The translations under genes and the position numbers were made by a program. Of a DNA stretch of 42,512 nucleotides, positions 1 through 42,512 are shown in pieces. A model generated the notes under the pieces. The model did no database searches. It was not told the DNA's origin and was given only the letters and a program-made list of their open reading frames with translations. Position 1 is the stretch's first letter; each line of letters starts with the position of its first letter. Source of the stretch: an uncultured Alphaproteobacteria bacterium (lineage in GTDB: Bacteria > Pseudomonadota > Alphaproteobacteria > Micropepsales > Micropepsaceae); the NCBI GenBank assembly GCA_903897605.1, contig CAIUCH010000012.1:1-42512 (forward strand), written 5' to 3'.

Positions 1-285
1 CACTTCCGGCCCGTTCAGGTCCAGGATGCCTTTGGCCGCCCGCAGCGAGGCCTGGGTGATGGTTTCGTGATAGCCGCTGGAATCGCTGTTCACCCCACCG
101 ACCGATTCATTGAAAGCGCGGATCAGGCCCGGCATCACCACCGGCGCGTCATGGCCCATGCGCATTAGCCACAGCGCCGCGGCGAAGTGGGCGGCATGGG
201 TCCACTCCTCCTTGGGCACGGTGCGGTCGATCAGCCCCTGCCCCAGGCGTTCAATCTCCGCGTCACTGGAAAAGATCGCGCGCAT
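1..285 (-). CDS. Conserved protein of unknown function, C-terminus cut by window edge
   Basis: The first 95 codons of a minus-strand gene run off the left edge without a stop. The ATG at 285-283 shares one base with the TGA of the upstream lysozyme gene (TGATG), which suggests translational coupling. The visible part has a W-T-H-A-A-H motif (residues 28-33), an ALWLMR helix, an IRAFNE segment and G-Y-H-E-T-I-T (71-77). I recall this combination from an uncharacterised bacterial family in which the His-x-x-His and YHETIT motifs are conserved, which hints at metal binding, but I know of no assigned function. No signal peptide or membrane segment is visible. Codon use is ordinary for the window. 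The gene is confident; its role is unknown. Confidence 0.75.
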   Translation of the reverse strand, partial: MRAIFSSDAEIERLGQGLIDRTVPKEEWTHAAHFAAALWLMRMGHDAPVVMPGLIRAFNESVGGVNSDSSGYHETITQASLRAAKGILDLNGPEV

Positions 286-767: not shown

Positions 768-790
768 ATCCGCGAATCCCCTTGAAACCC

Positions 791-819
791 TTCTAAAATT
801 AACCCCCGCACCCTATATT
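791..819 (+). promoter_or_regulatory. Possible ssrA promoter
   Basis: TATATT at 814-819 is a reasonable -10 box placed a few bases before the expected 5' end of the tmRNA precursor. The matching -35 position (TTCTAA, 791-796, 17-bp spacer) is weak. A better -35 word, TTGAAA at 782-787, is 26 bp away and too far. It is assigned mainly by position. Confidence 0.3.
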
Positions 820-825
820 GGGAAG

Positions 826-1068
826 GCTGGGCAACCAGCTATGGCAATAAACGGCTTCGTAATAAGCGGCCCGGACCCGGGGGCGGTACCCGGCGCCTCC
901 ACCACAAGCCCATTCCGGTGGGTTTTTGTGGGGGCGAAACAGGATCGACGGACGTGTAAAGGCTGTCCTTTTGCTCGGTATGGTATCCGCCGTTATCGGG
1001 CTATCCGTACAGGTGCCAACGATAATCAAATGGCCCTCGCTGCTTAATTAATTAAGCAAGCGCGGCTC
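826..1068 (+). ncRNA. ssrA: tmRNA, circularly permuted two-piece gene
   Basis: The gene rescues stalled ribosomes by adding a degradation tag. The order is permuted, as in other alphaproteobacteria: the acceptor piece comes first and ends at ACCA (901-904), then a 25-nt spacer (905-929), then the coding piece from 930. The acceptor stem forms between GGGGGCG (930-936) and CGCCTCC (894-900), seven pairs with a G-U at the third position, the identity element read by alanyl-tRNA synthetase. A 5-bp T stem, CCGGG/CCCGG, with a 7-nt loop lies just before it. The tag frame reads ANDNQMALAA and stops at 1045. The two mature pieces would be held together by the acceptor stem and further pairing. The 5' end (about 826) and 3' end (about 1068) are estimates, from a possible -10 box and from the following terminator. 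Recognition rests on the tag and the acceptor stem. Confidence 0.93.
1015..1047 (+). other. ssrA: ssrA proteolysis-tag reading frame (ANDNQMALAA)
   Basis: The resume codon GCC at 1015 starts ten sense codons, then TAA at 1045-1047. With the tRNA-borne alanine the tag is AANDNQMALAA, 11 residues: AANDN as in other alphaproteobacterial tags and an ALAA end like E. coli's for ClpX/ClpA. TAA also occurs at 1049 and 1053, so all three frames are closed within 11 nt. The stops lie inside a perfect 16-bp palindrome, GCTTAATTAATTAAGC (1042-1057), which can form a stem right after the tag. Confidence 0.9.
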
Positions 1069-1135
1069 GGGGGGCGCCGGGCAACAGAAGCCCCCCACCT
1101 TGCAAGTTCGCGCTTCGGCGCCCCCCTATTTTTTT
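1069..1135 (+). terminator. ssrA terminator (unit 1)
   Basis: GGGGGGCGCCG (1069-1079) pairs perfectly with CGGCGCCCCCC (1116-1126), followed at once by TATTTTTTT. The 36-nt interior can form smaller hairpins, including GCGC-TTCG-GCGC, and the six Gs could instead pair with the C run at 1091-1096. It has the form of an intrinsic terminator with an unusually long loop. Confidence 0.7.
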
Positions 1136-21947: not shown

Positions 21948-22439
21948 TTACAGCTGCTTCTGTAAAAACACCAAGGTCAGCCAGCGGTCGAATTTTCGGC
22001 CGATCTGCGGCAACCGTCCCGTCTCCTCGAAACCAAAGGCCTTGTGCAGTGCAATGCTGAGGGTGTTCTCACTGTCAATGCCGCCCACCAGGACATGCAG
22101 TCCCTGGGCGCGGCCCCTGTCGATCAGCGCTGCCAGCAGCGCCTTGCCGATGCCGCGGCCACGCGCATCCTCGCGCACATAAATCGAATGCTCGGCGCTG
22201 AGCCGATAGCCGGAGGGGCCACGAAACGACCCGTAGGTGGCATATCCCAGAAAACCCGATGCGTCCCGCGCCGCCAGCACGGTGTAATCGCGTTTGCGGG
22301 CCGCGAACCATTCGGCCATCTCCGCATCGCTCTTGGGATACTCATGGTAGGACGCGGTGGTATGGGCGGCGGTGTGATTGAGGATCGCCGTGATGGCGGG
22401 AAGATCCGCCTCCTGTGCCTCGTCGATCCAGTAATCCAT
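21948..22439 (-). CDS. GNAT N-acetyltransferase, phosphinothricin/methionine-sulfone type
   Basis: A 163-residue acetyltransferase of the PAT/MnaT group that uses acetyl-CoA to acetylate small amino-acid-like molecules. The GNAT fold begins I-D-E-A-Q-E-A-D-L-P-A-I. The acetyl-CoA loop is R-G-R-G-I-G-K-A-L-L (Arg/Gln-x-x-Gly-x-Gly/Ala type), preceded by S-I-Y-V-R-E-D-A, and the group-typical G-I-D-S-E-N-T-L-S-I-A-L-H follows, with F-G-F-E-E-T-G near the end. The start is the ATG at 22439; an upstream in-frame start would translate through the palindromic repeat. It is the first gene after ftsZ on the same strand, separated from it by that repeat. The natural substrate is unknown. Confidence 0.88.
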   Translation of the reverse strand: MDYWIDEAQEADLPAITAILNHTAAHTTASYHEYPKSDAEMAEWFAARKRDYTVLAARDASGFLGYATYGSFRGPSGYRLSAEHSIYVREDARGRGIGKALLAALIDRGRAQGLHVLVGGIDSENTLSIALHKAFGFEETGRLPQIGRKFDRWLTLVFLQKQL

Positions 22440-22448
22440 AATTGATTG

Positions 22449-22536
22449 CCCCCATCTGTGCGGCACGCGGGCAAGCCCGCTACCGCACATCTTCCCCCGC
22501 AAAAGGCTCCGCCTTGCGGGAGAAGAAAGCTGAGGC
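22449..22536. repeat. Palindromic dispersed repeat, copy A (downstream of ftsZ)
   Basis: Two adjacent hairpins fill most of the ftsZ-GNAT gap. Hairpin 1 (22458-22488) pairs GTGCGG with CCGCAC around an inner GCGGGC/GCCCGC. Hairpin 2 (22491-22525) pairs CTTC-C-CCCGCAA with TTGCGGG-A-GAAG. The same element occurs in reverse orientation at 42252-42341 with changed but still complementary stems. It resembles REP-type intergenic repeats. It may end or attenuate ftsZ transcription, but there is no T tract on the ftsZ side. Confidence 0.8.
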
Positions 22537-22562
22537 CAAGACGCACCGCCCGAATTAGCGCA

Positions 22563-24050
22563 TCAATTCGACTGCCTTCTCAGGAAAGCCGGAATCTCGA
22601 ACTGCTCATCCGTGCCGTGATCGGGGAACAGATCCTCCCCCGATGGCGGCGTCGCGGTCACGGGATCCGGCGCGACCGGCCGTTGCATCGGCGCGGCGGT
22701 GGCGCGGGGACGTTCGACCGAACCCGGCTCGGCGCGCATATCCGGCACGGCAGCCTTCTTGCGGCCGAACAGGCCCCAACCGGCCTTCTTGGGCGCCTTG
22801 GGACGTTGCGCCAAGGGCTGCTGATCGAGGGGACGATAGCTTTCCGTGGCCGGATAGCGCGGCGCGGCGGTGGCTGCCGGCACTTCGATCGCCGGCGTTT
22901 CCCGGCCGACCAAGGGCATCGCGGCTTCGGCGTGCATGGCCGGCGCATTCAATTCCGCGGCCAGGCTTTCGACCTGGGCCTGCACCGGGTTCACCGTCGC
23001 GACGGGTCTTGTGGGCTCCATGCGAAAAGCCTGGGGCTTCAGATGCGGACGTAGCGTATGGACCTTTTCCGGCAGCTTCATCATCTCGGCATCGATGCCG
23101 GTGGCGACCACCGACACACGGATACGGCCTTCCATCTCATCCAGGATGGTATTGCCGAAGATGATATTGGCGTCGGGATCGACTTCGGCGCGGATACGGT
23201 TGGCGGCCTGTTCGACTTCGAACAGCATGAGGTCCGGCCCGCCGGTGATGTTGATCAGAACGCCCTTGGCGCCCTTCATGGTGACATCGTCCAGCAGCGG
23301 GTTGGAGATCGCCATGTCGGCGGCCCGGATGGCGCGGTCCTCGCCCTCGGCCTCGCCGGTGCCCATCATCGCCTTGCCCATCTCGGTGATCACCGACTTG
23401 ATGTCGGCGAAGTCCAGACTGATGAGGCCTGGCATGACAATAAGGTCGGTGACACCGCGCACACCGGCATGCAGCACCTCGTCGGCCATGGCGAAGGCTT
23501 GGGACATGGTGGTGCGGTCGGAAGCGACGCGGAACAGATTCTGATTGGGAATGACGATCAAGGTATGGACGAATTGCTGCAGCTCGGTGATGCCTTTCTC
23601 GGCCACCCGCATGCGGCGATCCCCTTCCAGGGCGAAAGGCTTGGTGACCACGCCGACGGTCAGAATGCCCGCTTCGCGCACCGCGCGCGCGATAACGGGG
23701 GCTGCGCCGGTGCCGGTGCCGCCGCCCATGCCGGCGGCGATGAACACCATATGGGCGCCGGCCAGGTGATCCATGATTTCCGCAAGCGATTCCTCGGCGC
23801 CGGCCCGTCCGACTTCCGGCTGGGCGCCCGCGCCCAGGCCTTCGGTGGTTGCGGCGCCCAGCTGGATGCGATGTTCGGCCTTGGATTGGGCCAGCGCCTG
23901 GGCGTCGGTGTTGGCGACGACGAAATCGACGCCGTCGAGACCTGCCTCGATCATATTGTTGACGGCATTGCCGCCGGCGCCGCCGACACCGAGCACGGTG
24001 ATGCGGGGACGCAATTCCTTGGTCTCAGGTAATTTGAGGTGGATCGCCAT
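22563..24050 (-). CDS. ftsZ: Cell division protein FtsZ
   Basis: Tubulin-like GTPase that forms the Z ring. The 495-residue protein has the N-terminal [10 protein letters not shown] (21-30), the GTP signature G-G-G-T-G-T-G (109-115), N-P-L-L-D-D as the T7-loop region and M-A-I-S-N before it. A long variable linker rich in Pro/Ala (about 325-480) follows, as is usual in alphaproteobacteria. The C-terminal peptide [10 protein letters not shown] is the docking site for FtsA and other partners. A good Shine-Dalgarno, GAGGAG, stands upstream of the ATG. The 83-bp gap behind ftsA carries four GANTC words, so ftsZ may have its own cell-cycle-regulated promoter. Confidence 0.98.
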
Positions 24051-42251: not shown

Positions 42252-42341
42252 ACGTGGCTTTCTTCCCCCGCATGGCGAAGCCATTGGCGGGGGGAGATGT
42301 CCGCTAGCGGGCCTGCCCGCGTGGCGGACAGATGGGGGAAA
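42252..42341. repeat. Palindromic dispersed repeat, copy B (downstream of rnpB)
   Basis: The reverse complement of copy A at 22449-22536, again two hairpins. One (42299-42329) pairs GTCCGC with GCGGAC around a GC-rich inner stem. The other (42262-42296) pairs CTTCCCCCGC with GCGGGGGGAG around ATGGC-GAA-GCCAT. Outer stems differ from copy A on both arms in a way that keeps pairing. It fills the gap between the DUF1810 stop and the 3' end of rnpB. Confidence 0.8.
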
Positions 42342-42349
42342 AGAAAATG

Positions 42350-42512
42350 TCAGACAGCCTGTAAGCCGGGTTCTGTCCATCACCGAAGTGACTGGATGAC
42401 CATTCCTCTGGGATGTGTGTCGCCACACACCTCACGCGACCGACCCGGACGGCGATGCGGAAAACATCACGTGCCGTCCCTATTTGGTCTTGCTCCCGGT
42501 GGGGCTTGCCTA
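42350..42512 (-). ncRNA. rnpB: RNase P RNA, 3' part only
   Basis: The catalytic RNA of RNase P, which trims tRNA 5' leaders. Read on the minus strand, the window edge begins inside the gene: AGACCAAATAGGGA (42461-42474 region), then GGGTCGG, CCCAGAGGAATGG and finally ACAGAACCCGGCTTAC, the highly conserved 3' segment of bacterial type A RNase P RNA. About 160 nt are present and the 5' part lies beyond 42512. The 3' end near 42350 is set from the conserved CCGGCTTAC segment and a following T-rich stretch. Confidence 0.93.

Follow-up and report, generated by a model that had tools for sequence, protein, structure and literature searches.

The window analysed here, a stretch of 42,512 nucleotides from an uncultured alphaproteobacterium, carries two copies of a double-hairpin repeat, at the sites where the earlier note had placed them. 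Copy 1, a type I copy on the plus strand, has an 81-nt core at 22449..22529 (101.2 bits with the covariance model); copy 2, likewise of type I and with an 81-nt core, occupies 42258..42338 on the minus strand (105.3 bits). Hairpin 1 of copy 1 (22457..22489) comprises an outer stem (22457-22463/22483-22489), the bulges CAC and TA and an inner stem (22467-22471/22476-22480). Its hairpin 2 (22490..22526) has an outer stem at 22490-22500/22516-22526 with a C-A mismatch at 22495/22521, and a tip at 22503-22515. The 3' tail of copy 1, with CCAAGACGCACC (22530..22547, plus strand), resembles by eye the start of the spacer of longer composites. In copy 2, hairpin 1 lies at 42298..42330, with the outer stem GTCCGC/GCGGAC, and hairpin 2 at 42261..42297, with a C-A mismatch at columns 45-75 (both minus strand). 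The CATCT linker between the hairpins had been described correctly; CATCT was found also 5' of hairpin 1.

Both copies had been said to sit just 3' of an essential gene. This holds for copy 2, which lies in sense orientation behind rnpB (42346..42512, minus strand, cut by the contig end; RF00010, 122.7 bits), but copy 1 is antisense to ftsZ (22563..24050, minus strand; TIGR00065, 404.2 bits against a cut-off of 295.2). The core of copy 1 ends 33 nt behind the ftsZ stop codon and starts 9 nt ahead of the start codon of the next gene, a GNAT acetyltransferase-like gene (21948..22439, minus strand) for which 17 families were listed, each below its own curated cut-off. On the reverse strand of copy 1, GATGGGGGCAATCAATTATG reaches the start codon of the GNAT-like gene, and a G-run (GGGGG) lies shortly before this codon (window 22440-22455); judged from these letters, a copy in antisense might provide the following gene with a G-rich ribosome-binding region. 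The rnpB gene is split by the contig end, with a further stretch on contig C6 (G000:C6:33454-33651), and a permuted alphaproteobacterial tmRNA gene is located at window 787-1099.

When aligned, the stretches around copies 1 and 2 had a mean column identity of 88%. A 40-base hairpin-1 pattern with up to 3 mismatches matched exactly these two copies in the window and nothing in 100 shuffles. Compared with dinucleotide shuffles, both strands of both copies folded well (z of -3.78, -5.55, -3.96 and -3.88), and 0, 0, 0 and 1 of 200 shuffles, respectively, folded as well. The paired stem changes claimed between the copies are present at three pairs in which both partners are altered (outer hairpin-1 stem, columns 12-38 and 15-35; hairpin 2, columns 56-66), but two further pairs (columns 45-75 and 47-73) differ on one side. 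No Rfam family matched at either of the two elements of the window, and a search of the elements of five loci at E<=5 was likewise negative.

Copy number, layout and range of the repeat family

A genome-wide covariance search, as the earlier note had suggested, was run with a model built from 20 full-length type I copies of the own genome. It gave 61 matches at E<=1 and 45 at E<=0.001, and a DNA search of the 2.79-Mb, 60-contig assembly gave 45 matches at E<=10, many of them partial. The genome thus holds further copies, and these carry paired changes in their stems. Some of the model matches belong to a second subfamily, beta (CCCCCTCCGGCC...), with the same layout as the first, alpha. In the 20 type I copies, 97.5% of pair cells were paired compared to 40-52% for slid structures, the former value being favoured by the derivation of the structure from the same 20 sequences.

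The unit consists of a T-rich tract, CCCCCATCTGT, hairpin 1, ACATCTTCCCCC, hairpin 2 and GGGGGAAGAAAGCC, in this order. Over 149 copies, T makes up 50-65% at all but one of the nine positions -10 to -2, compared to 20% farther out, and on the 3' side conservation extends a few bases past GAAGAAAG. In type II copies the CATCT linker is replaced by a third hairpin (GTTCGGTA...TACCGAAC), longer composites have the form alpha(+)-spacer-beta(-), and an additional palindrome within hairpin 1 or 2 occurs at L021, L255, L259, L025 and L133, such palindromes often having a core that resembles AAAGCTCC...GGAGCTTT. Module combinations and alternating orientation of the BIME kind are therefore present as type I, type II, loop or tip inserts and alpha(+)beta(-) composites. 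The repeat is a non-autonomous mosaic palindromic DNA family, REP/BIME-like in kind, of one mostly uncultured alphaproteobacterial genus. At the level of titles and abstract openings, with the original RIME and Bru-RS papers outside this coverage, the papers listed by the literature searches contained no account of this double-hairpin family.

At E<=0.001, the covariance model matched in 14 of 36 congeners and in none of 24 genomes from other families of the class. Positive congeners had between 1 and 29 matches, and the own genome had 43 in the same cross-genome search. Among 289 genomes of the class, 6 contained an exact pattern of the general layout; three of them belong to the genus, counting the own genome, and three to other families. 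The reversed control of the pattern occurred in none of the genomes listed; in the three other-family genomes the second C-run/G-run hairpin was also present behind the pattern. These three genomes, of other alphaproteobacterial families (G047, G080 and G318; L278-L280, L284, L287, L290, L293), show the order CCCCCTCCGTC-hairpin-GACACCTCCC-hairpin, and G047 has two pairs of double-hairpin copies about 205-210 bp apart. Among the matches listed, the named records with exact ones were mostly metagenome-assembled genomes labelled Alphaproteobacteria, Proteobacteria, Hyphomicrobiales or Rhizobium sp. Q54, and Rhizobiales bacterium dw_265.

The earlier note had suggested a REP-like family of this lineage. 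The family is indeed dispersed, keeps its hairpins and lies mostly at gene 3' ends, but a REP identity in the strict sense is not supported, as it shows neither an unpaired GTAG or CGTC tag nor a link to RAYT. The unpaired GTAG tag is absent from the consensus ends. At its foot (columns 9-12), hairpin 1 has TGTC (or TGTG), whose letters take part in base pairs in all or almost all of the 106 copies. In the stem, TGT is followed by C or G in 105 of these, so that an AT-start stem as in CGTC REPs is absent, and no CCA tail is conserved after hairpin 2 in 149 copies. For comparison, passages of Di Nocera 2013 (PMC3733652) describe the superfamilies GTAG and CGTC, the latter with tag variants TGTC and CCTC, a stem of 8-9 bp starting with AT and a tail that is mostly CCA. 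Like the REPs of those passages, the present elements are dispersed palindromes that lie mainly near 3' ends, between genes in convergent or tandem order, with copy numbers several-fold different between related genomes; unlike them, they have a core of 81 nt that forms two hairpins rather than a single hairpin of 20-40 bp, and no unpaired tag, AT-start stem, CCA tail or visible link to RAYT.

As BIMEs and REPINs are generally described, the family shares with them mosaic modules that include inverted pairs, here alpha(+)-spacer-beta(-), and differs from them in its double-hairpin modules, its C-run/G-run stems and the in-place differences of hairpins at shared sites. RIME of Rhizobium and Bru-RS of Brucella are intergenic palindromic elements of Alphaproteobacteria of about 100 bp, and their likeness to the double-hairpin family is one of description only. 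The length of Bru-RS is given as 103-105 bp in a table of PMC2267715.

Position of the copies relative to genes

Mapping to gene 3' ends, a check that the earlier note had proposed, placed the copies mostly there. Genes were called by codon usage, with training on the window plus three stretches of 20 kb. The 142 copies came from many loci, which had been picked by the repeat and are non-random; with two copies left out of the position counts owing to overlap with a called gene, 52 lay between convergent genes, 35 in sense tandem, 40 in antisense tandem and 13 in divergent arrangement. Where a gene end faces the CCCCC end of the element, the stop codon is at most 15 nt away in 76 of 87 cases (quartiles 2, 4 and 9 nt). 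Distances are wider for gene ends facing the other end (quartiles 16, 37 and 128 nt), and a gene start faced by the CCCCC end is within 15 nt in 15 of 53 copies. For the 43 alpha copies of the own genome, partial ones included, the gene calls placed 14 between convergent and 5 between divergent genes, 10 with a gene end only on the 5' side and 13 with one only on the 3' side; the 5' neighbour was uncalled for one copy and a called gene overlapped two. We infer that many copies should be transcribed within 3' UTRs. Ribosome stalling has been reported for E. coli REPs located at most 15 nt from a stop codon (Liang 2015, cited in a passage of PMC12306157).

A tie to essential genes, which the neighbourhood of ftsZ and rnpB had suggested, was not borne out. 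The ftsZ gene was located in 40 of 41 genomes, and scanning 30 ftsZ loci with the model revealed a full adjacent element only in the own genome, in antisense, and in one congener, G016, in sense and in the order stop codon, element, terminator. Weak partial matches occur beside ftsZ at L199, and several of 21 downstream regions inspected by eye have an ordinary terminator instead. The scan does not support a conserved site beside ftsZ; copies adjoin many other genes, and the adjacency to ftsZ looks incidental.

For rnpB, matched in 36 of 41 genomes, 30 loci were taken, of which 29 were readable. A regular expression detected an alpha/beta-type start 8-14 nt behind the end motif in six (L295-L298, L301, L305), and a decayed alpha/beta-like start was seen by eye at L299. 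Four loci (L300, L302, L307, L308) have a CGTC-REP-like start at 11-13 nt, L309 appears similar by eye, and the remaining loci have neither type of start. At the level of the model, only four of these loci gave E<=0.01 behind rnpB, the own-genome copy being additional. As the repeat families found there differ, the rnpB 3' end is a recurrent site of palindromic repeats and is not specific to the double-hairpin family.

Stem changes among copies and at sites shared between species

The main alignment held 109 matches at E<=1e-12 from 100 chosen loci, 106 of them distinct; a second alignment, of 102 matches at E<=1e-7 from 93 chosen loci, has many copies in common with it. In the 106 distinct copies, 98.0% of pair cells are paired, 19 of 28 pairs vary on both sides, and 336 cells carry two-sided changes compared to a shuffle mean of 72. 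The 2918 cells include 27 G-T, 31 A-C and 28 other non-Watson-Crick combinations. Overall, then, there is no excess of G-U over A-C of the kind that would mark a strand-specific RNA, and step-wise compensation by way of G-U intermediates is not supported, G-U being no commoner than A-C. By stem part, G-U and A-C number 7 and 21 in the outer hairpin-2 stem, 13 (7 of them at one pair) and 6 in hairpin 1, and 7 and 4 in the hairpin-2 tip; we take these opposite hints as showing no consistent strand signal.

Among the full GC-rich types of the hairpin-1 inner stem, GCGGG occurs 66 times, GGCCG 15 times, and GCCCG and GGGGG once each. Given the dominance of two types and the rarity of intermediates, the three inner-stem pairs flip together. 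The pair states of hairpins 1 and 2 are nearly independent, with mutual information above shuffles of at most 0.11 bits between them, compared to up to 0.66 bits within hairpin 1 and 0.85 bits within hairpin 2.

Sites are frequently shared between species. A first set of 19 orthologous pairs, non-independent and from loci picked by the repeat, displayed 86 two-sided against 19 one-sided changes; 75 of the former lead from one Watson-Crick pair to another, and the other 11 fall partly at misaligned columns. Stem divergence was 0.187 in orthologous and 0.195 in non-orthologous pairs (1278, drawn from the genome pairs of the set), while unpaired positions diverged by 0.091 and 0.118, respectively, and the flanks of orthologous sites by 0.180. 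Hairpin 1 was identical in 1 of 19 orthologous pairs and hairpin 2 also in 1 of 19, compared to 3.5% and 3.7% of non-orthologous pairs. In a control with terminator-like hairpins from the same loci, which is small and may include spurious hairpins, 11 pairs had 15 one-sided and no two-sided changes.

A stricter set comprised 154 rows, of which 150 were parsed, 149 unique places and 42 orthologous pairs; a near-flank filter left 33 pairs at 24 independent sites, whose hairpins were compared by edit distance. At 21 of the 24 sites at least one hairpin differed by at least 4 edits. For the closest pair per site, edits in hairpins 1 and 2 were at least 4 in both at 11 sites, 2-3 and at least 4 at four, 0-1 and at least 4 at three, at least 4 and 2-3 at two, at least 4 and 0-1 at one, 2-3 in both at one and 0-1 in both at two. 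Flank divergence over these sites ranged from 3.0 to 22.1%, and four edits in a hairpin of 27-30 nt are unremarkable at the remotest of them.

A small number of closely related sites show in-place replacement, on both arms, of a hairpin or of its tip. Seven sites have a flank divergence of up to 11.2%. Four of them contain a hairpin with at least 4 edits (hairpins 1 and 2: L079/L096, 1 and 8; L163/L166, 1 and 7; L074/L088, 4 and 6; L103/L117, 13 and 5), one has 3 in each (L008/L159), and two have 0-1 in both (L085/L134, 1 and 1; L093/L109, 0 and 0). One hairpin with 0-1 edits stands beside another with 7-12 at L079/L096, L163/L166, L012/L143 and L127/L157. In L079/L096, with flanks 96% identical, the hairpin-2 tip differs on both arms and is nearly the sole change, the others being one hairpin-1 substitution, a G-run shorter by one G and small differences just upstream. 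L124/L125 displays a switch between types I and II with hairpin 2 unchanged.

In a donor test, changed hairpins were no commoner elsewhere than the background: of hairpins changed by at least 2 edits, 33 of 68 (hairpin 1) and 27 of 76 (hairpin 2) were identical at a non-orthologous place, compared to 91 of 149 and 59 of 149. A gap search for empty sites with target duplication yielded 27 places, and no clean empty site with a duplication emerged; an inserted beta unit was recognised at one locus (seen twice, L107 and L230), likewise without one. Of 12 alignments inspected, L087/L153 showed presence and absence of a beta unit, and the rest other sequence or module changes.

Origin of the paired stem changes

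The earlier note had read the paired changes as structure kept by compensatory change. The hairpins are indeed kept, with 98% pairing, but step-wise compensation is not supported as their plain explanation: at shared sites one-sided changes are a minority (19 vs 86), several pairs flip together, and close relatives can differ by a whole hairpin or tip. It is hard to invoke for L079/L096, where both arms of the tip differ although the flanks are 96% identical. New insertion is hard to invoke where one hairpin was kept and the other changed within conserved surroundings. Taken together, the sites with one kept and one changed hairpin and the two-arm tip change led us to infer copying of hairpin blocks, which explains both. 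We therefore consider it fairly probable that the elements are mosaic REP/BIME-like repeats at lasting sites, whose hairpin blocks are renewed by short-tract copying between copies. Such copying, from other copies by ectopic gene conversion or by template switching during replication, would be anchored in the conserved flanks and the linker and would preserve stem pairing with no need for step-wise compensation. For conversion of the RecA type, anchors of 10-16 nt are short. Passages of PMC8794818 indicate that template switching can produce two-sided hairpin changes in one event. As in the template-switch hairpins described there, the present changes are multi-base and two-sided and the stems stay paired. 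However, whereas those stems are mended by a reverse-complement copy of nearby sequence, several new tips in the present family do not copy the former local arms and would need another donor.

Averaged over the orthologous pairs, stem divergence (0.187) is about that of the flanks (0.180), so at the remoter sites the amount of change needs no special process and the two-sided pattern alone does. Ordinary compensation may have acted at these more distant shared sites, and the support for clear block replacement comes from few close pairs, four of the seven sites with up to 11.2% flank divergence having a hairpin with at least 4 edits. A functional 3' UTR RNA element, with its pairing under RNA selection and maintained by ordinary compensatory substitution, would agree with the near-complete pairing and strong covariation, with the stop codon lying within 15 nt of the CCCCC end in most gene-end-facing cases, and with the lower divergence of unpaired positions (0.091) than of flanks (0.180) at orthologous sites. 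We nevertheless find it somewhat doubtful: G-U and A-C mismatches are balanced overall and opposed between outer hairpin-2 stem and hairpin 1, sense tandem copies (35) do not outnumber antisense ones (40), several pairs flip jointly, a tip changed at 96% flank identity, and one-sided steps are the minority. Repeated insertion of a MITE-like element at a favoured site behind stop codons, the differing hairpins being independent insertions, appears unlikely. It would account for the narrow position, for the different palindromic repeats at the rnpB 3' site across congeners and for L090/L094, which carry alpha(-) and alpha(+)beta(-) at one site, and it would also explain the 11 of 24 sites with at least 4 edits in both hairpins; it fits poorly with sites where one hairpin is unchanged and the other changed, the flanks being near-identical up to the element. 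As to the terminal inverted repeats, target-site duplication and parent transposon that define a MITE, composites run CCCCC...GGGGG, the gap search gave no clean empty site with a duplication, and the search for a parent covered Y1_Tnp.

That the family consists of REPs or REPINs proper, moved by RAYT (a Y1 tyrosine transposase), is improbable, even though hairpins dispersed by gene 3' ends, inverted alpha/beta composites and one Y1_Tnp gene in the genome would suit it. The 3.3-kb locus of this gene contains no recognisable copy and its ends are of another kind, and among seven genomes with at least 6 matches Y1_Tnp was found in three and not in four, namely G016, G006, G030 and G035 (29, 20, 8 and 6 matches; G016 is 82% complete). 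GTAG is absent, the TGTC-like letters are paired, and the elements have neither the AT-start stem nor the CCA tail that mark CGTC REPs. RAYT as the mover was rejected, as neither neighbourhood nor co-occurrence fits. The Y1_Tnp gene, the sole one found in the genome, lies at about 1390-3130 of L031 among GGGGTCAGAGT-type ends, and a partial repeat of its own 3' part occurs farther along (both by eye). Dispersed intrinsic transcription terminators would likewise be GC-rich hairpins behind genes, but this reading has very little to commend it: hairpin 2 is followed by no T-run, the conserved 3' flank being GAAGAAAGCC, and terminator-like T-run hairpins were seen by eye behind the element in L016, L009 and L188. 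A terminator identity was rejected for the lack of a T-run after hairpin 2.

Under block copying between lasting sites, the reading we prefer, the initial spread of the family would have needed an insertion enzyme. A barrier to exonucleases at 3' ends is a possible mild effect on the cell, and an effect on ribosomes at the stop codon is another possible candidate, in line with the report on E. coli REPs mentioned above.

Two-sided stem changes are the usual proof of conserved RNA structure. Tentatively, we propose that at long-kept sites the stems of this family are actively rewritten as paired blocks from a shared pool of hairpin cassettes, which would generate covariation without selection on RNA pairing. 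If this is true, covariation in dispersed repeats may stem from DNA copying. With at least 24 shared sites, the family offers material for telling block replacement from step-wise compensation, and the narrow position of its copies just behind stop codons can be put to the test as well.
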